64,000 nt of DNA from positions 1-64,000 of the forward strand of contig CAMKNA010000005.1 in assembly GCA_946414075.1 (NCBI GenBank), written 5' to 3'. This stretch comes from an uncultured Fibrobacter sp. Its GTDB lineage: Bacteria > Fibrobacterota > Fibrobacteria > Fibrobacterales > Fibrobacteraceae. The notes under the pieces are model-generated. The model searched no databases. It saw only the letters and a program-made list of their open reading frames with translations, and was not told the DNA's origin. Below, one piece after another: positions 9,643-16,396 of the stretch. The translations under genes and the position numbers were made by a program. Positions within the stretch are counted from its first letter, which is position 1; the number at the start of each line of letters is the position of its first letter.

Positions 9643-10473
9643 TCACTCGCCCGCGACAAACCGGACATACATATCCAGCAAGTCCTGACCCCACAGGTAC
9701 ATCACCGGGGCGGACACCGCCAGGAATGGCCCAAAGGGAATCTGGCCAGAACCATCCGTCCTGCCCTTCCTTTCCATTATCTTCGCCCAGGGAATCATGA
9801 TCAAGATTCCAAGGAAAGACGCCAGAATCAGCACTTCCACGGCGGCATCAAGTCCCATAAGGGCCCCATAGCCAGCCAACAGCTTGACATCGCCAAAACC
9901 CATGGCCTCCTTTTTCAGGACTTTCGTCGCAATAAGGCCCAAAAGCCAAAGGCCGCCACCGGCGCCCACAACACCCAGCAGGCTTTGAAAAGGCGTAATG
10001 CCACCCGGAAACATGGAAAGCACCAGGCCCACCACGATACCCCCTACCGAGATGGAATCGGGAATTAGTTTGTACTTAACATCTACGGCACACACGGGAT
10101 ACATGCCCAAGAGCAGCCAGAACATGGCCAGGGCATCCACCCAGTTGGCCACAGGAGCCCTGAAAGGGATGCCGCAATTCACCGAAAAAAGGGCCAAGGC
10201 GCCAAGCAAGCCACATAGGGCTTCCCCTATGGGGTAAATCACGCTGATGGGCTGCTTGCAACAGGCGCTCTTGCCCCGCAACCATAGCCAGCCCACGATA
10301 GGCAGATTGTAGCGGATAGGGATTCTTTTTTTGCACAGCGGGCAATGGGAAGGCGGGTTTATCAGGGAAATTCCGCGGGGCATCCGGTAGACAATCACGT
10401 TGTAGAAACTGCCAACACAGGCTCCCAAGGCAAAAAACAGAACAAGACCGTACCAAAGCGGAATATTTTCCAT
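9643..10473 (-). CDS. pilD: prepilin peptidase / N-methyltransferase (PilD/GspO)
   Basis: This integral membrane aspartic protease cleaves the leader of type IV pilins and type II pseudopilins and methylates the new N-terminus. The 276-residue protein has a cytoplasmic loop with paired cysteines (CPLCKK.. and ..SACCKQ) as in full-length bifunctional enzymes. The first catalytic Asp is in AVDVKYKLIPD and the second in GFGDVKLLAG, and there are about seven membrane segments. The start is placed at the ATG at 10473 (MENIPLWYG). The 15 residues upstream in the same frame are polar and not conserved in type. It is distant from pilT-pilC (52.7-55 kb), whose pilus it would serve. Confidence 0.93.
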   Translation of the reverse strand: MENIPLWYGLVLFFALGACVGSFYNVIVYRMPRGISLINPPSHCPLCKKRIPIRYNLPIVGWLWLRGKSACCKQPISVIYPIGEALCGLLGALALFSVNCGIPFRAPVANWVDALAMFWLLLGMYPVCAVDVKYKLIPDSISVGGIVVGLVLSMFPGGITPFQSLLGVVGAGGGLWLLGLIATKVLKKEAMGFGDVKLLAGYGALMGLDAAVEVLILASFLGILIMIPWAKIMERKGRTDGSGQIPFGPFLAVSAPVMYLWGQDLLDMYVRFVAGE

Positions 10474-10566
10474 AAAAACCCCAAAAACAGGTCGGGGCCC
10501 ACAACCCCTTTTTCTCAAAAAAAGATAAATTTATATCGTAAAGAGCGTATTATAGAGGATTGAATA

Positions 10567-13500
10567 ATGCGGTTAAAATCTTTGTTTTTATTGTTTGGGC
10601 TAACCTTGTGCATCCTGTCCCTGGTCAACTGTTCCAGGGAGTCCTCCATCAAGGAAAATGTGAACCTGCGGAACAACCATTCCGTCGTCTTCGTCTATAA
10701 AACGCCCTTTGAAAACCCCGAAGCATTTGCCGACTCCATCATCAACCTGCCCAACCCCGATTCAGTCATCGTCAGCGACACCATCACCGTTACCATCGGC
10801 GACACCATCCACATGATGGGCTTCTTGCGCTACAACTCCGACAAGATATACCTATACCAGTGGATCCTGGACAGCCTGGTAAAGGATTCTACGGGCAAGG
10901 GAAAGGACAAGATGAAGAAGGCCCTGGTAACGGGCCGCAATGCCACCCCGCAATCCTGGGTATACCTTAAGGAAGGAATCTACTCCCCCCTGTTTGTCGC
11001 CGTCGATGGAAACAGCGCCACCGACACGGCCGGCAAGGACCAGTTCATCCGAGTCATAAACACGCCTCCCTACCTGGGCGTTCCCAGGGACACCCTGTGG
11101 ACTAGGGCCAAGAGCCCCATTACCTTCCCCGTTTTGGCATTGGATTCCTTCGGGACCATCACCTCCTTCAAGGTGGATGTAGACGCCAAGGGCAAGAGAG
11201 AAGCCAAGGAATGGAAGTACACGCAAAGCGAAGACTCGGACAGCGTGCTCATCACCATTCCCTACGACTCCACGCTAACCGACACTCTCGGCAACCAGAC
11301 GATCTACATCATCTTGACCGACGACGACGGCAACACCACCAAGGATAGCGTGCACCTTCATTTCAACCAGCTGCCCACCATCAAGATCCTGGGTCCCGAC
11401 GACCAGCAAAGGATTAGTGACACCGTGGAGTCTTTCCGCCTGTTCTACGAAGGACACGACAGGGACAACGAAGACCAGCTGCGGTACTATGTCCGTGTTG
11501 CGGCCACGCCCGACAACCAGGATGCGGATTTGAACCTGTCCAATGTCTACGACCTGGTCCTGAAGAACAGTACCTCCACCAGCTTCGCCGTTATCGAAAA
11601 CGGCGTAAACGCCCTGAAGAACCTGGGGTATACAGGCAGGTATTTCTCCTGGGATGTATGGGTTACCGACGGCTACGACACCGTGGTTGCCGAGAAGATC
11701 AAAACGGGCAAGGGGAAACAGCGCCCAAGGTACTTCTACCTAGGCCCAAGCAAATCTACCTGTGACTTTATAGGTTCCGCCAAGTTCGAAGGCCTGTCCG
11801 TCCACTCCGGAATCAAGATCACCCTGGTCAATGTGGCCGACACCAACAACATCTACACCGCAGAGACCAAGCCCAACGGCGAGTTCAGAGTGTCCGGCCT
11901 GCCTTCGGGGACATTCAGGCTCACCGCTTCGGACGAAACTGGCCGCGGGTTTGTGAAGGTCACCACCAGGACGCCAAACATCAACGCCGGCGACGAGAAG
12001 GTTCTGCCCCCCATCCTGCTGAAGGACCCCGCGCCCCCCAGGATACTCAACATCAAGGGTGTCGAAGACACGATGACCGTCCGCAGCTTCACCATAACGG
12101 GAAGGTTCAGCGACTACGGTTCCCAGGTCAAAAAAGCGGTAGCCCTGTTGGGCAAGGACACCTGCAGCACCAAGAACAACTCCTGCGGCGAGGTTACCAT
12201 TTCCAAGAGCTTCGCCTGGAGCATCAATCTCGCCAACTTGGCCGATGGCAAGTACAGTTTCAAGCTTACGGCAACCGATAGTGCCGGTCTCCACAGTGAT
12301 ACCACCATTTCGTTCGTCGTGGCGGCGACCAACATGACCATCACCGTGAACGGTGCCAACGCCGCCATGGTGGGTACGAGCGGAGAACTTGTCTTTGCGG
12401 CAACCATTAAACAGGCCAAACCGCGTGTAAATAGGGTCTACTGGATATCCGATGCCAAGGGAAAGAAGGACTCCTCCGATGTGGACGACGAGGGTAACAC
12501 ATCCATCAAGCTGTACAAGGCCGATTTCCCAGACGCAGAACTAGGCAAGCGTTACACCATGCATGCCGTAGCCGACAACGGAAGCGGTTCCAACAATGTC
12601 CGATTCGGTTTCTATGAAAATGGTCCCGTCGTCACCATCGAGAAACCCGCCTACGACACCACCATCACCATAAACGATGTGATTACCGTCCACACGAACG
12701 CTTTCGCAAACAACCAGAACCAGACCGACCTTGATTTTGCCACCTTTGAATGGACTTGTCTCCAGAATGGAACTGCCGGCGGTCCCTGTCTGACAGGAAG
12801 CACCGCCGACCAGACCATATCCTGGACCACCGCAGGAACGAAACTTATTGCCGTACATGTGGTGAACAAGCAAGGCGAACAGGCCTTCGACACCTTGAAA
12901 GTCAATGTCGTGAAAGACCCCCCGACCATCTCCATAGACGAAAATGAAGAAGTCATCACCCAGAAGGTCAGTGCCCACTACACATTCGGGTACACCGCCA
13001 AGGATAGGCTAGGGACTATCGCAAGTATAGGCTGGAGGTGTGGCGACAAGAACGGGGCGTTCACTCCCGCCGCCACTACCATTCCGCCAGAAACGAAACA
13101 ATTGGACGACTCCGTAACCGTTGACCTTCCCAGCACCGAAAAGACCAACTACAAGTGCTTCGTCAAGGTCACCGACGACGACAATCAGGTCGGTTACGAC
13201 TCCATCCGGTTCAACATCATCAAGGACATTCCGACCATCCGCCTGAACATTCAAGAAACGGATGTCACCATCAAGGACCGCGAACAGGTGAAGTTTACCA
13301 CGAGCAACATTCTCGGCGGCCCCATTGACCTGGATCTCGCTTGTGATCTCGATCTGAAAAACCTGAAACCCGCCACCTGGAGTAGCAAATGGCAGGGATC
13401 CCGTAATTCCCAGGCTCCCTATGTAACCATGCCAACTGTGGACAAGGATAAGCCCTACTACTGCGTCATGAAAGCGGCCGATGCTGAAGAACCGACACTC

Positions 13501-15960
13501 TATTCGTTAGACACTACCACCTACATAGTCCACCGAGCGACTCCGACCGTCACCGTAAATGAATCCTACACCATGACCATCAAGGACACCATTACGCTGT
13601 ACGCCAACGCCAAGGACTCCGCCGAAGCGGATCTGCCCGGAAGGATCATCTCCTACGAATGGGGATGCGGCCCCAACAGCGACAACGGCCTTCTGGGCAA
13701 GCTAACCAGTACGGGTAAGAACACCTACAAGGTAACCCTGCCCGATACACCACAGAACGACTACCTATGCATTGTGCAGGTCATGGACGACGACAGTCTC
13801 ACCGCAAGGGACACCACCCACTTTGTCGTTGAGCTGGCCCCGCCTACGGTGAAGGTTGCCCGCGACACAGCCATTGTACGCGAAGGTTTTGCCATAATTC
13901 TCAGCGCGACTGCACACGACGCCCACGAAGGCACCATGGGCTACATTGCCAAACGGGAATGGAGCTGCGGAAGGAATACCACGGATATCAACAGTAACTG
14001 GAAAAAAGTCTCATCCTTTGACACCACATGGACCACCCCCCCGCAAGCGGGCGATATGATCTGTATCGCACGGGCAACCGATGACGACGGGAATATCGCC
14101 TCCGATACAATGTACCTTGTCTATTCCACAGAAATTCCGATAATTTCCGTAGACGAGTCCCAGAAATTCGTGGCCAAGGGCGACCCGTTCCTACTAGATG
14201 CCGACACCAACAGCGTATGGCAGGGCATTGACTGGTATAGCTGGCGTTGCTTCAAGAAGAGCAACAAGCAACCCGTGGAAGACGAGAAGCGGCTAACCTA
14301 TAAGGGGAGATTCTACACTTACCGAGAAGAATTGAGCAAATTGGGAGTGGACCTGTATTGCGTGGTTTCAGCACAAGAATCCGCCACCCAAATGGTATTC
14401 ACCGACACGACCTTCGTCACCGTGATGACCCAGGAAAACCTTCCCATAGCAAAAATTACCGCGGCGGACACGATTTACCCCTGGAGTGGTGATGAGAGTC
14501 TAAGCGGCGAAGCTGTTTACTACTACACACCCGAATGGGGCGGAACCCAATCGGAAATCGGTTCCCTTGGCAACGAGAATCTCAAGGAGTTCTACTGGCA
14601 ATTCAGCAACATAGGTGGGACCTTCTACCAGGGTCGTAATGATGGCACCCTAGATACAACTAGCGGGCAATTCCATGCCGCTTTCAAGCGCCCCACAACG
14701 GAAGATCCCATCAGCGTGTGTCTGGACTTTAGAGACAGTACTTTGGCAGGTGCCGACCAGACATTCATGAACCGTCACCGGGCAGCATTAGTCTGCCGCA
14801 CAATCTATGTGCAAAGGGCCTGGAAGAACCTAGCCGGCGTAGGCGACACGGTCCTAGAACAGTCCACCGTTCGCACACCACCCGCCATAGCAACGGTGGG
14901 GAACCTGCTCACCGTGGCCTACATGACGTCAGGAACCACCATTACATCGAAATACTACGACGGGTCACAATGGTTCAACCTAGGGAACATTACCGTCGCC
15001 GACTCTGTCATAGCCATGCGTATGGTCAGCAACAATAGCATAGCGTACCTGGCCGTACTTACCAAGGCCAACAAACTTTATGTTTACAAGTCCACAGGGG
15101 GAACTTCGGTCTGGAATGCAGTGGGACAGGCCATCAATGGAGCCACCTCTGTAAACTTGACTTACAACACCGACAACAACAACCCCGTGGTGACATACGC
15201 CAAGGCAAATTACCCGTACTTCAGTTATTGGAGCGGGACAAAGTGGGAAGAAAAACAAATTGACAGTACCATCACGGCAAGAGAAGTCAATGGCATCTTT
15301 ACCAGCAAGAAGCTATTCCTGATAACCTTTACAGACAACACCTATCTGTACAACACCTACTACGCCGTATACAGTTTCTCCTACTCAAGGCATGTTTCCC
15401 CCAGAAAAATCGATAGGGAAATGGGCAGCATCAGCCTTGCTTCACAAGAAAACACCATTTACATGGGCTACATCAACCGTTCCTCTGTCGTGGGCAAGGC
15501 AGGTCCCTATGTGAAAATAGGAGAGGTCTCACAAACAGGGCTTTCTTGGGGACAAAATTCCGAGAAGAACCTGCAAGAAGCCATGTTCCCCTCGAATATA
15601 CGGGTGGCCTCGTTTAACGGAAAAATTTATGCCATCATTGACGATAACGGGCGCGGGTTCTCGCACTGTCACGCCTTCTTCTACGACGGTATAAGTTGGA
15701 AACCCTATGGCGAAAACCAGCTTCCCTATTTCAAGGGCGAGTTCTATAATAGAAACCACTACAATCTGTTTGGATTCGCCCCGGAAATAGCCGTTTCTAC
15801 AGACGGGATGGTCTACATCTCCATGATTTCGTGGGCAGGCTTACCCAAAAAAGTAGATTACGGCTCGGGTCCTGTATACATGGTACCCGAAAGTGAGAAC
15901 AACGGCCCCATATTCATGAAGAACATTTCAGAACGATGGACCATCAACACAAAGCCCTAA
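10567..15960 (+). CDS. giant lipoprotein with Ig-like cysteine-paired repeats and a beta-propeller-like C-terminus
   Basis: The 1797-residue protein starts with a lipoprotein signal (LSLVNC, Cys22). Ig/PKD-like segments with GDTI and TIKD turns come next, then a carboxypeptidase-regulatory-like domain at about 398-490 (GEFRVSGLPSGTFRLTA). About six repeats of roughly 100 residues follow (about 690-1300). Most repeats hold a W-x-C near the start and an x-C-hydrophobic-x-DDD segment about 35-60 residues later (YEWGCG..YLCIVQVMDDD; REWSCG..MICIARATDDD). Each repeat therefore probably contains one disulfide. The last 400 residues (from about 1400) have propeller-like strands with WxxLG and YYDGSQW. 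It is probably a surface adhesin or carbohydrate-interacting protein. The stop is one base from the next ATG, suggesting coupling. Confidence 0.88.
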   Translation: MRLKSLFLLFGLTLCILSLVNCSRESSIKENVNLRNNHSVVFVYKTPFENPEAFADSIINLPNPDSVIVSDTITVTIGDTIHMMGFLRYNSDKIYLYQWILDSLVKDSTGKGKDKMKKALVTGRNATPQSWVYLKEGIYSPLFVAVDGNSATDTAGKDQFIRVINTPPYLGVPRDTLWTRAKSPITFPVLALDSFGTITSFKVDVDAKGKREAKEWKYTQSEDSDSVLITIPYDSTLTDTLGNQTIYIILTDDDGNTTKDSVHLHFNQLPTIKILGPDDQQRISDTVESFRLFYEGHDRDNEDQLRYYVRVAATPDNQDADLNLSNVYDLVLKNSTSTSFAVIENGVNALKNLGYTGRYFSWDVWVTDGYDTVVAEKIKTGKGKQRPRYFYLGPSKSTCDFIGSAKFEGLSVHSGIKITLVNVADTNNIYTAETKPNGEFRVSGLPSGTFRLTASDETGRGFVKVTTRTPNINAGDEKVLPPILLKDPAPPRILNIKGVEDTMTVRSFTITGRFSDYGSQVKKAVALLGKDTCSTKNNSCGEVTISKSFAWSINLANLADGKYSFKLTATDSAGLHSDTTISFVVAATNMTITVNGANAAMVGTSGELVFAATIKQAKPRVNRVYWISDAKGKKDSSDVDDEGNTSIKLYKADFPDAELGKRYTMHAVADNGSGSNNVRFGFYENGPVVTIEKPAYDTTITINDVITVHTNAFANNQNQTDLDFATFEWTCLQNGTAGGPCLTGSTADQTISWTTAGTKLIAVHVVNKQGEQAFDTLKVNVVKDPPTISIDENEEVITQKVSAHYTFGYTAKDRLGTIASIGWRCGDKNGAFTPAATTIPPETKQLDDSVTVDLPSTEKTNYKCFVKVTDDDNQVGYDSIRFNIIKDIPTIRLNIQETDVTIKDREQVKFTTSNILGGPIDLDLACDLDLKNLKPATWSSKWQGSRNSQAPYVTMPTVDKDKPYYCVMKAADAEEPTLYSLDTTTYIVHRATPTVTVNESYTMTIKDTITLYANAKDSAEADLPGRIISYEWGCGPNSDNGLLGKLTSTGKNTYKVTLPDTPQNDYLCIVQVMDDDSLTARDTTHFVVELAPPTVKVARDTAIVREGFAIILSATAHDAHEGTMGYIAKREWSCGRNTTDINSNWKKVSSFDTTWTTPPQAGDMICIARATDDDGNIASDTMYLVYSTEIPIISVDESQKFVAKGDPFLLDADTNSVWQGIDWYSWRCFKKSNKQPVEDEKRLTYKGRFYTYREELSKLGVDLYCVVSAQESATQMVFTDTTFVTVMTQENLPIAKITAADTIYPWSGDESLSGEAVYYYTPEWGGTQSEIGSLGNENLKEFYWQFSNIGGTFYQGRNDGTLDTTSGQFHAAFKRPTTEDPISVCLDFRDSTLAGADQTFMNRHRAALVCRTIYVQRAWKNLAGVGDTVLEQSTVRTPPAIATVGNLLTVAYMTSGTTITSKYYDGSQWFNLGNITVADSVIAMRMVSNNSIAYLAVLTKANKLYVYKSTGGTSVWNAVGQAINGATSVNLTYNTDNNNPVVTYAKANYPYFSYWSGTKWEEKQIDSTITAREVNGIFTSKKLFLITFTDNTYLYNTYYAVYSFSYSRHVSPRKIDREMGSISLASQENTIYMGYINRSSVVGKAGPYVKIGEVSQTGLSWGQNSEKNLQEAMFPSNIRVASFNGKIYAIIDDNGRGFSHCHAFFYDGISWKPYGENQLPYFKGEFYNRNHYNLFGFAPEIAVSTDGMVYISMISWAGLPKKVDYGSGPVYMVPESENNGPIFMKNISERWTINTKP

Positions 15961-15961
15961 T

Positions 15962-16396
15962 ATGATTGTTGAAATAGCTTCCATTTGCGATGCGGCCACG
16001 GCCAATGGTGCCGGCGGTCGCTTGAACATCCTTGGATCCTTCGATAGGATTTTCTCCCAATTTCCGCTGGTAATCCCCCAGTGTGCCGCCGCCTTCCGTA
16101 TCCGCTACCAGCGGGCCGAATCGGGCGTCCACAAGCTGGCGCTTTCCATCGAAGATGTGTGCGGGCACCCCATTGTTCCCGGCATGGAATCGAACATTAC
16201 CTTTGAACCTGTGGCGAAGGGCTTTGACACGGCCGCCATGAACCTGATTCTGAACATGCAGCGCCTGAAAATAGAACGGCCTGACAAGTATATCGTCCGC
16301 CTGGTCATCGACGACGAAGAATACGTGGCCCTGCCCCTATACGCCCTGGAAGCGCCCCAGGCTGGTCAGGGAACTGCCGACGAAATGAAGAACTAG
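15962..16396 (+). CDS. DUF6941-like conserved protein
   Basis: The 144-residue protein has no signal peptide. It begins MIVEIASICDAA and contains LNILGSFDRI and a central ESNITFEP segment, with a short beta-sandwich-like pattern. It resembles the small DUF6941 family, whose role is unknown to me. The ATG follows the stop of the giant lipoprotein by one base (TAATATG), so the two are probably translationally coupled. Its stop overlaps the stop of the convergent phosphopantetheinyl transferase by four bases. Confidence 0.75.
   Translation: MIVEIASICDAATANGAGGRLNILGSFDRIFSQFPLVIPQCAAAFRIRYQRAESGVHKLALSIEDVCGHPIVPGMESNITFEPVAKGFDTAAMNLILNMQRLKIERPDKYIVRLVIDDEEYVALPLYALEAPQAGQGTADEMKN

Follow-up and report, generated by a model that had tools for sequence, protein, structure and literature searches.

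A giant Fibrobacter lipoprotein with conserved cysteine pairs along a chain of Ig/PKD-like domains and a predicted C-terminal beta-propeller

The locus raises the question of what a giant lipoprotein with a regular series of Cys pairs does in the envelope of an anaerobe, and whether these pairs are disulfides. The gene at 10567-15960 on the forward strand of the window (the whole 64,000-nucleotide stretch of Fibrobacter DNA analyzed here) starts with ATG and encodes a protein of 1797 aa with 20 Cys residues.

Gene, lipobox and domain chain

The N terminus carries a signal peptide, consisting of a hydrophobic stretch followed by an SLVN-C22 lipobox, and lipidation is predicted. The lipobox Cys C22 is identical in 54 of 54 orthologues. 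Signal peptide, lipobox, and invariant Cys together mark the protein as a bacterial lipoprotein, so that the giant lipoprotein of the original prediction, made from the sequence of this gene, is borne out by both reading frame and lipobox. The motif C22-S-R-E (10630-10641) is near-invariant, no fewer than 53 of the 54 orthologues sharing each of its residues. S-R-E does not follow any other lipobox Cys listed in a sample of 20 lipoboxes and is possibly a sorting signal. The domain boundaries below were set by us from the sequence, and the two neighboring genes are included.

9643-10518, reverse strand: type IV prepilin peptidase, divergent neighbor (Pfam PF06750 and PF01478)
10567-10632, forward strand: signal peptide and lipobox, predicted lipidated Cys22 (sequence)
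10681-11751, forward strand: Ig/PKD-like segments N1-N3, aa 39-395 (boundaries from sequence)
11752-12036, forward strand: carboxypeptidase-regulatory-like domain, aa 396-490 (Pfam PF13620, E 4.3e-6, below the curated cut-off)
12037-12636, forward strand: two Ig-like domains, aa 491-690 (Pfam PF22352, best stretch aa 542-582)
12637-12918, forward strand: domain D1, aa 691-784, C731/C741 (alignment)
12919-13227, forward strand: domain D2, C825/C864 (alignment; model strands 234-241 and 275-286)
13228-13539, forward strand: domain D3, C926/C966 (alignment; model strands 336-343 and 379-388)
13540-13839, forward strand: domain D4, C1034/C1068 (alignment; model strands 443-452 and 479-490)
13840-14136, forward strand: domain D5, C1134/C1166 (alignment; model strands 543-551 and 580-588)
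14137-14442, forward strand: domain D6, C1228/C1265 (alignment; model strands 637-646 and 679-687)
14443-14820, forward strand: domain D7, aa 1293-1418, C1385/C1410 (alignment; low-confidence model)
14821-15957, forward strand: C-terminal beta-propeller, aa 1419-1797 (AlphaFold, VIA, conservation)
15962-16396, forward strand: DUF6941 gene, adjoining the giant gene on the same strand (Pfam PF22091, E 2.3e-28)

The five tandem PKD/Ig-like domains D2-D6 span aa 785-1292. The whole protein matches the K319L-like PKD family (PF22352) in three stretches with E 4.1e-10 and 40 bits against a curated cut-off of 27, which makes it PKD/Ig-like by that cut-off, whereas D4 alone stays below it (22.8 bits); 19 of 42 repeat sequences match the family at E 0.01. 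With PKD and K319L-like PKD domains (PF22352, PF00801, PF18911) the repeats share the order of motifs, a YxW strand C and a YxC/V strand F followed by a D-rich turn. PKD chains of collagenases are weak PDB matches of the repeat profile and have Phe and Val at the two positions where the Fibrobacter repeats have Cys. The likeness to CarboxypepD_reg (PF13620) reaches 27.4 bits against a cut-off of 32.3 (E 4.3e-6) and falls short of membership; the regulatory-like domain predicted for the N terminus thus has a counterpart, but as the fourth segment, with three Ig-like ones preceding it. The whole protein has no match among PDB sequences and only sub-threshold matches in NCBIfam.

An AlphaFold model of aa 585-1300, built from 12 sequences, has a mean pLDDT of 83.4 and a pTM of 0.40, so that the individual domains can be trusted further than their arrangement relative to one another. 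Each repeat is modeled as a seven-strand Ig-like sandwich, and Ig-like folds dominate the structure matches. In the model of D2-D6, the first Cys falls close to the end of the strand taken as C, and its partner close to where strand F starts. Because strands C and F adjoin in one sheet in the Ig/PKD topology, a bond within the pair would staple that sheet, whereas the classical bond links strand B with strand F; D4 has no Cys in its strand B (model 424-432). Canonical Ig domains likewise have a strand-F Y-x-C close to the strand-C Trp, whereas the partner Cys of the repeats sits two residues past that Trp, in strand C and the same sheet, rather than in strand B of the other sheet as in the familiar Ig topology. 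The best match of the stalk is another long bacterial Ig-like chain, the Aureispira grappling hook GhpA (9flp and 9fls, known by their PDB titles), with Foldseek E 1.2e-21 and VIA Z 11.7 (325 residues aligned, rmsd 20.5). At 15-17% identity and with so poor a multi-domain rmsd, the match indicates a similar kind of chain and not kinship or common function.

For the C-terminal region, the block means of the AlphaFold model are mostly above 90 for aa about 1440-1640, and D7 is modeled with low confidence. Model and VIA fold comparison agree with the propeller-like domain originally proposed, a predicted seven-bladed beta-propeller whose core is modeled with confidence. VIA aligns 326 residues with CylK (7fh6; Z 32.4, rmsd 2.8), and PLL/PHL lectins follow at Z about 26-27, the match to 5c9l (Z 27.3, 301 aligned, rmsd 2.8) assigning the domain to the propeller-lectin (PLL type) fold with putative sugar binding. 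The Photorhabdus PLL fucose-binding lectins and CylK share only this fold with the Fibrobacter domain at about 10-12% identity, and the latter differs in being fused to a lipid-anchored stalk. A profile of the C terminus found nothing convincing in the PDB, and a Pfam search at E 0.1 gave no match for the window protein and single-member matches only among 12. Within the propeller, the loop GENxLPYF at aa 1715-1722 is conserved, with few other conserved polar residues.

Conservation of the cysteine pairs

Similar architectures, which the original prediction proposed to look for in Fibrobacter, were found: of the 80 genomes of the genus, 62 contain a long match. The search of 167 Fibrobacterota genomes added 13 genomes of other Fibrobacteraceae genera and, outside the Fibrobacteraceae, short Ig-like matches only. 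Long matches were thus seen in 75 Fibrobacteraceae genomes, of which 54 contributed a full-length orthologue to the alignment (identity to the 1797-aa protein 28-72%); the other 21 were omitted, partly because their matches are fragments. The alignment excludes loci L031-L041 (score and length as in rows among L002-L013), the partial second copy L066, and the distant loci L067-L073.

Both Cys residues of the pairs 825/864, 1034/1068, 1134/1166, and 1228/1265 are present in 54/54 orthologues, and both Cys of 926/966 in 53/54, with neither in the remaining one. These five pairs fit the repeats with one Cys pair each that had been noted near residues 822, 925, 1030, 1131, and 1225. The C-hydrophobic-x-DDD/AxD motif expected after the second Cys holds in part: three of these domains have DDD, a fourth has ADA, and no such motif follows C1265. 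The variant repeat noted near residue 727 has a pair, 731/741 in D1, but its second Cys lies ten residues on, in the loop after strand C and not in strand F. The spacing inside the pairs varies from 26 to 44 residues for 825/864 (D2) and from 34 to 59 for 1228/1265 (D6), with both Cys kept. In the whole protein, 147 columns are identical in 53 or all 54 orthologues, and these hold 11 of the 20 Cys (that of the lipobox and the ten of the D2-D6 pairs); this share exceeds those of the next residues, Trp (10/32) and Asp (39/130), indicating that the pairs in the repeats are more than chance.

Outside D2-D6 the pairs are less constant. Pair 731/741 is complete in 49/54 orthologues, with the first Cys only in three and neither in two, and pair 1385/1410 (D7) is complete in 27 and wholly missing in 27, with no mixed case. 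Pair 533/540, in the first Ig-like domain of aa 491-690, is clade-specific, with both Cys in 13 orthologues and neither in 41; pair 544/551 has the same counts in a different clade. On a FastTree tree built without the Cys columns in question, positions 1385 and 1410 change twice each, in the same rows, and 533, 540, 544, and 551 once each, whereas 731 changes once and 741 twice, one of these times alone; the unpaired C1533 changes seven times. On this tree the pairs outside D2-D6 are mostly gained or lost together, with too few independent changes for significance in a sign test. C399 occurs in the same 13 rows as 533/540, showing that a shared clade alone can make Cys residues look linked, which limits the weight of single-clade pairs.

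Among 53 copies of the domain in seven loci of distant Fibrobacterota, 34 have the F-strand Cys only, five have both Cys, one has the strand-C Cys only, and 13 have neither. Loci L067, L068, L069, L071, and L072 encode large proteins with many copies, mostly with one lone F-strand Cys each. Because the lone F-strand Cys is the commonest state among the distant copies, this residue would either predate its partner or be the easier of the two to acquire, and its presence alone, judged from the alignments, is no sign of a disulfide.

Distribution, synteny and loss of the gene

The giant gene is usually single-copy, and its frame is 1748-1833 aa long in 52 of 54 orthologues, the outliers being 1617 aa and a read-through frame of 2125 aa. 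One Fibrobacter genome has a second, shorter relative (the 1089-aa frame L066) on another contig. When 24 genomes, of which 23 lack the orthologue, were searched with a profile of aa 1280-1797, no second carrier of this C-terminal part emerged. The gene sits in a conserved block consisting of the divergent prepilin peptidase, the giant gene, DUF6941, and usually a phosphopantetheinyl transferase and a small lipoprotein. Prepilin peptidase and DUF6941 both flank it in 25 of 27 loci, the exceptions (L086 and L087) being the most divergent orthologues; neither neighbor gives a hint of the function of the giant protein. The one copy in most genomes, the constant length, and the fixed synteny speak against an adhesin that varies rapidly, and a variable, repeat-expanding adhesin was rejected on the clustering of frame lengths.

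Protein search and domain profile agree that 18 of 80 Fibrobacter genomes lack the gene. DUF6941 was found in 13 of 15 gene-lacking genomes searched, all 13 of them Fibrobacter, and the frames of prepilin peptidase and DUF6941 abut in 8/8 loci viewed from gene-lacking genomes (L145-L152), by which incomplete assembly was rejected for these eight. In a prepilin-peptidase tree the eight loci form one clade inside Fibrobacter (support 96). The gene occupies the same position in other genera, so a single loss would be the simplest account of its absence from this clade, and the best reading of the sequence data is that the protein is ancestral in Fibrobacteraceae and usually single-copy.

Oxidation, location and function of the rod

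The reading we favor, to which we give about even chances, is that the protein is an outer-membrane lipoprotein forming a long Ig/PKD-like rod, with C-F Cys staples in D2-D6 and a lectin-like propeller at the far end. The lipid would anchor it at the outer membrane and leave a long rod exposed; in D2-D6 the Cys near the end of strand C would pair with that near the start of strand F, and this staple would hold the sheet together; the propeller at the tip would bind a glycan or another surface ligand. Most of the distal beads are probably pinned by one internal Cys pair each. This arrangement supposes that the pairs are oxidized and that the rod is on the cell surface. On judgement, not computation, we consider the disulfide state likely and the surface location fairly likely, while ligand binding by the propeller, judged in the same way, has somewhat less than even chances.

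The genomic setting bears on the first of these points. Neither DsbB (PF02600) nor VKOR (PF07884) was found in any of 80 Fibrobacter genomes, with control genomes matched, although a very divergent relative could escape such a search, and neither was found in 18 wider Fibrobacterota genomes, five of them from other Fibrobacteraceae genera; at the level of sequence, a DsbA/DsbB or DsbA/VKOR oxidative pathway is therefore not recognized. A DsbA-fold match is present in 17/17 genomes tried and, in the four Fibrobacteraceae loci read, including the window's own genome, is a lipoprotein with CPYC. It scores above the cut-offs of Pfam Thioredoxin_4 and DSBA, and its solved relatives include DsbA, BdbD, and ScsC-type copper-sensitivity proteins. 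At L094:2820-3554, L093:1219-1953, and L091:1219-1956 it has no obvious DsbB-like neighbor. The DsbD family occurs in 14/14 genomes, and the DsbA-fold lipoprotein may be an isomerase partnered by DsbD or may rely on an unknown oxidant.

A crude Cys parity test, using our own signal-peptide caller, was applied to predicted exported proteins with 1-8 Cys from the window and from 400 kb of one Fibrobacter genome (L095-L114), the stretch at 320-340 kb of the latter being left out by choice because it holds the orthologue. Even Cys counts occur in 40 of 78 Fibrobacter proteins (null 0.49) against 22 of 34 from E. coli (null 0.42), a difference that is not significant (Fisher p 0.22), and the lack of an even-Cys bias gives no general sign of disulfide use in Fibrobacter. 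Cys makes up 1.13% of the exported Fibrobacter proteins, a high content next to the 0.72% of the E. coli sample, and only five of 97 have no Cys. According to the available text of PMC12453122, obligate anaerobes tend to keep Cys out of exported proteins, and some have DsbA-like proteins but no partner to regenerate them; the sampled Fibrobacter proteins do not follow that exclusion trend. Cys-rich exported proteins without an even-number bias are odd for an obligate anaerobe without recognized DsbB or VKOR. DsbA-like proteins that likewise have no recognized regenerating partner are described in the same text for Streptococcus gordonii (SdbA), Staphylococcus aureus (DsbA), and some anaerobes. 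Unlike the SdbA-type cases, Fibrobacter also has DsbD-type proteins, and the relatives of its DsbA-fold protein include the ScsC type, so that its direction may be that of an oxidase or of an isomerase.

These data also accommodate a rival reading in which the gut niche is reducing and the Cys are free thiols buried in the core, that of strand F being an old core residue of the domain family and that of strand C a secondary core substitution, with no staple formed. The 34 of 53 distant domains whose only Cys is in strand F, the unrecognized DsbB and VKOR in both genome sets, and the Cys-rich exported proteins without even-Cys bias fit such thiols and count against disulfides. Core residues, however, usually drift among Val, Ile, Ala, and Cys, as seen at the strand-C positions of distant domains, whereas both Cys are kept in essentially all 54 orthologues, and pairs elsewhere in this protein are gained or lost as units, among them loop pairs with a spacing of seven residues that resemble disulfide hairpins. 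We consider free thiols unlikely; near-invariant pairs despite variable spacing, joint gain or loss elsewhere in the protein, and the CPYC lipoprotein of DsbA fold support the disulfide reading.

As regards location, about thirteen Ig-like beads in extended form are probably too long for the periplasm, which argues for a rod on the surface. A periplasmic scaffold or envelope spacer at the outer membrane, with the propeller docked on another envelope protein, would suit the mostly single copy, the constant length (52/54 at 1748-1833 aa), the fixed synteny, and the conservation of the N-terminal domains and of the GENxLPYF loop, but about thirteen domains far exceed the usual periplasm unless bent, the propeller is less conserved than the base, and the gene is dispensable in one clade; we consider such a scaffold unlikely. 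Mean identity is 0.49-0.61 in N1-N3, among the most conserved parts (58-61% in N1 and N2), and 37% in the propeller, as expected for an exposed tip. D1-D3, at 0.32-0.37, are no better kept than the propeller, whose lower identity may therefore reflect weak constraint. If the tip were instead a sugar-acting or cyclizing enzyme, this would agree with the closest propeller folds, which include CylK (Z 32.4) and, at Z about 24-26, several glycoside hydrolases and one lyase. The propeller is a common arrangement, however, and with the low identity to these folds, the Pfam result at E 0.1, and so few conserved polar residues beyond the GENxLPYF loop, we regard an enzyme as very unlikely.

The stapled surface rod can be extended to a broader proposal, which we rate as doubtful: that a strict anaerobe of the gut with neither DsbB nor VKOR maintains a giant surface rod in which five or more conserved disulfides of an unusual, in-sheet C-F kind act as staples, for which an undescribed oxidant or regenerator of the DsbA-fold lipoprotein would be needed, and that the stapled domain arose stepwise from the lone-thiol form still seen elsewhere in the phylum. 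The repeat type is already known; the novelty lies in the pairing of strands C and F and in its occurrence in an anaerobe with no recognized DsbB or VKOR. A literature search returned no paper linking Fibrobacter with 'PKD domain' and nothing evident on Fibrobacter disulfides, and a search combining Fibrobacter, PKD, lipoprotein, adhesion, and cellulose returned a match that concerns Cytophaga instead. The available text of PMC6851124 reports four 'Carboxypeptidase regulatory-like' lipoproteins of F. succinogenes S85, which may or may not include this orthologue.

Fibrobacter is a major fiber degrader of herbivore guts. If the pairs are disulfides, the rod would be a well-conserved substrate with which to learn how Fibrobacter oxidizes its envelope proteins while lacking both known regenerating enzymes. 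The clade that has cleanly lost the gene provides natural knockouts, and a comparison of isolates could reveal a link to attachment or substrate use.
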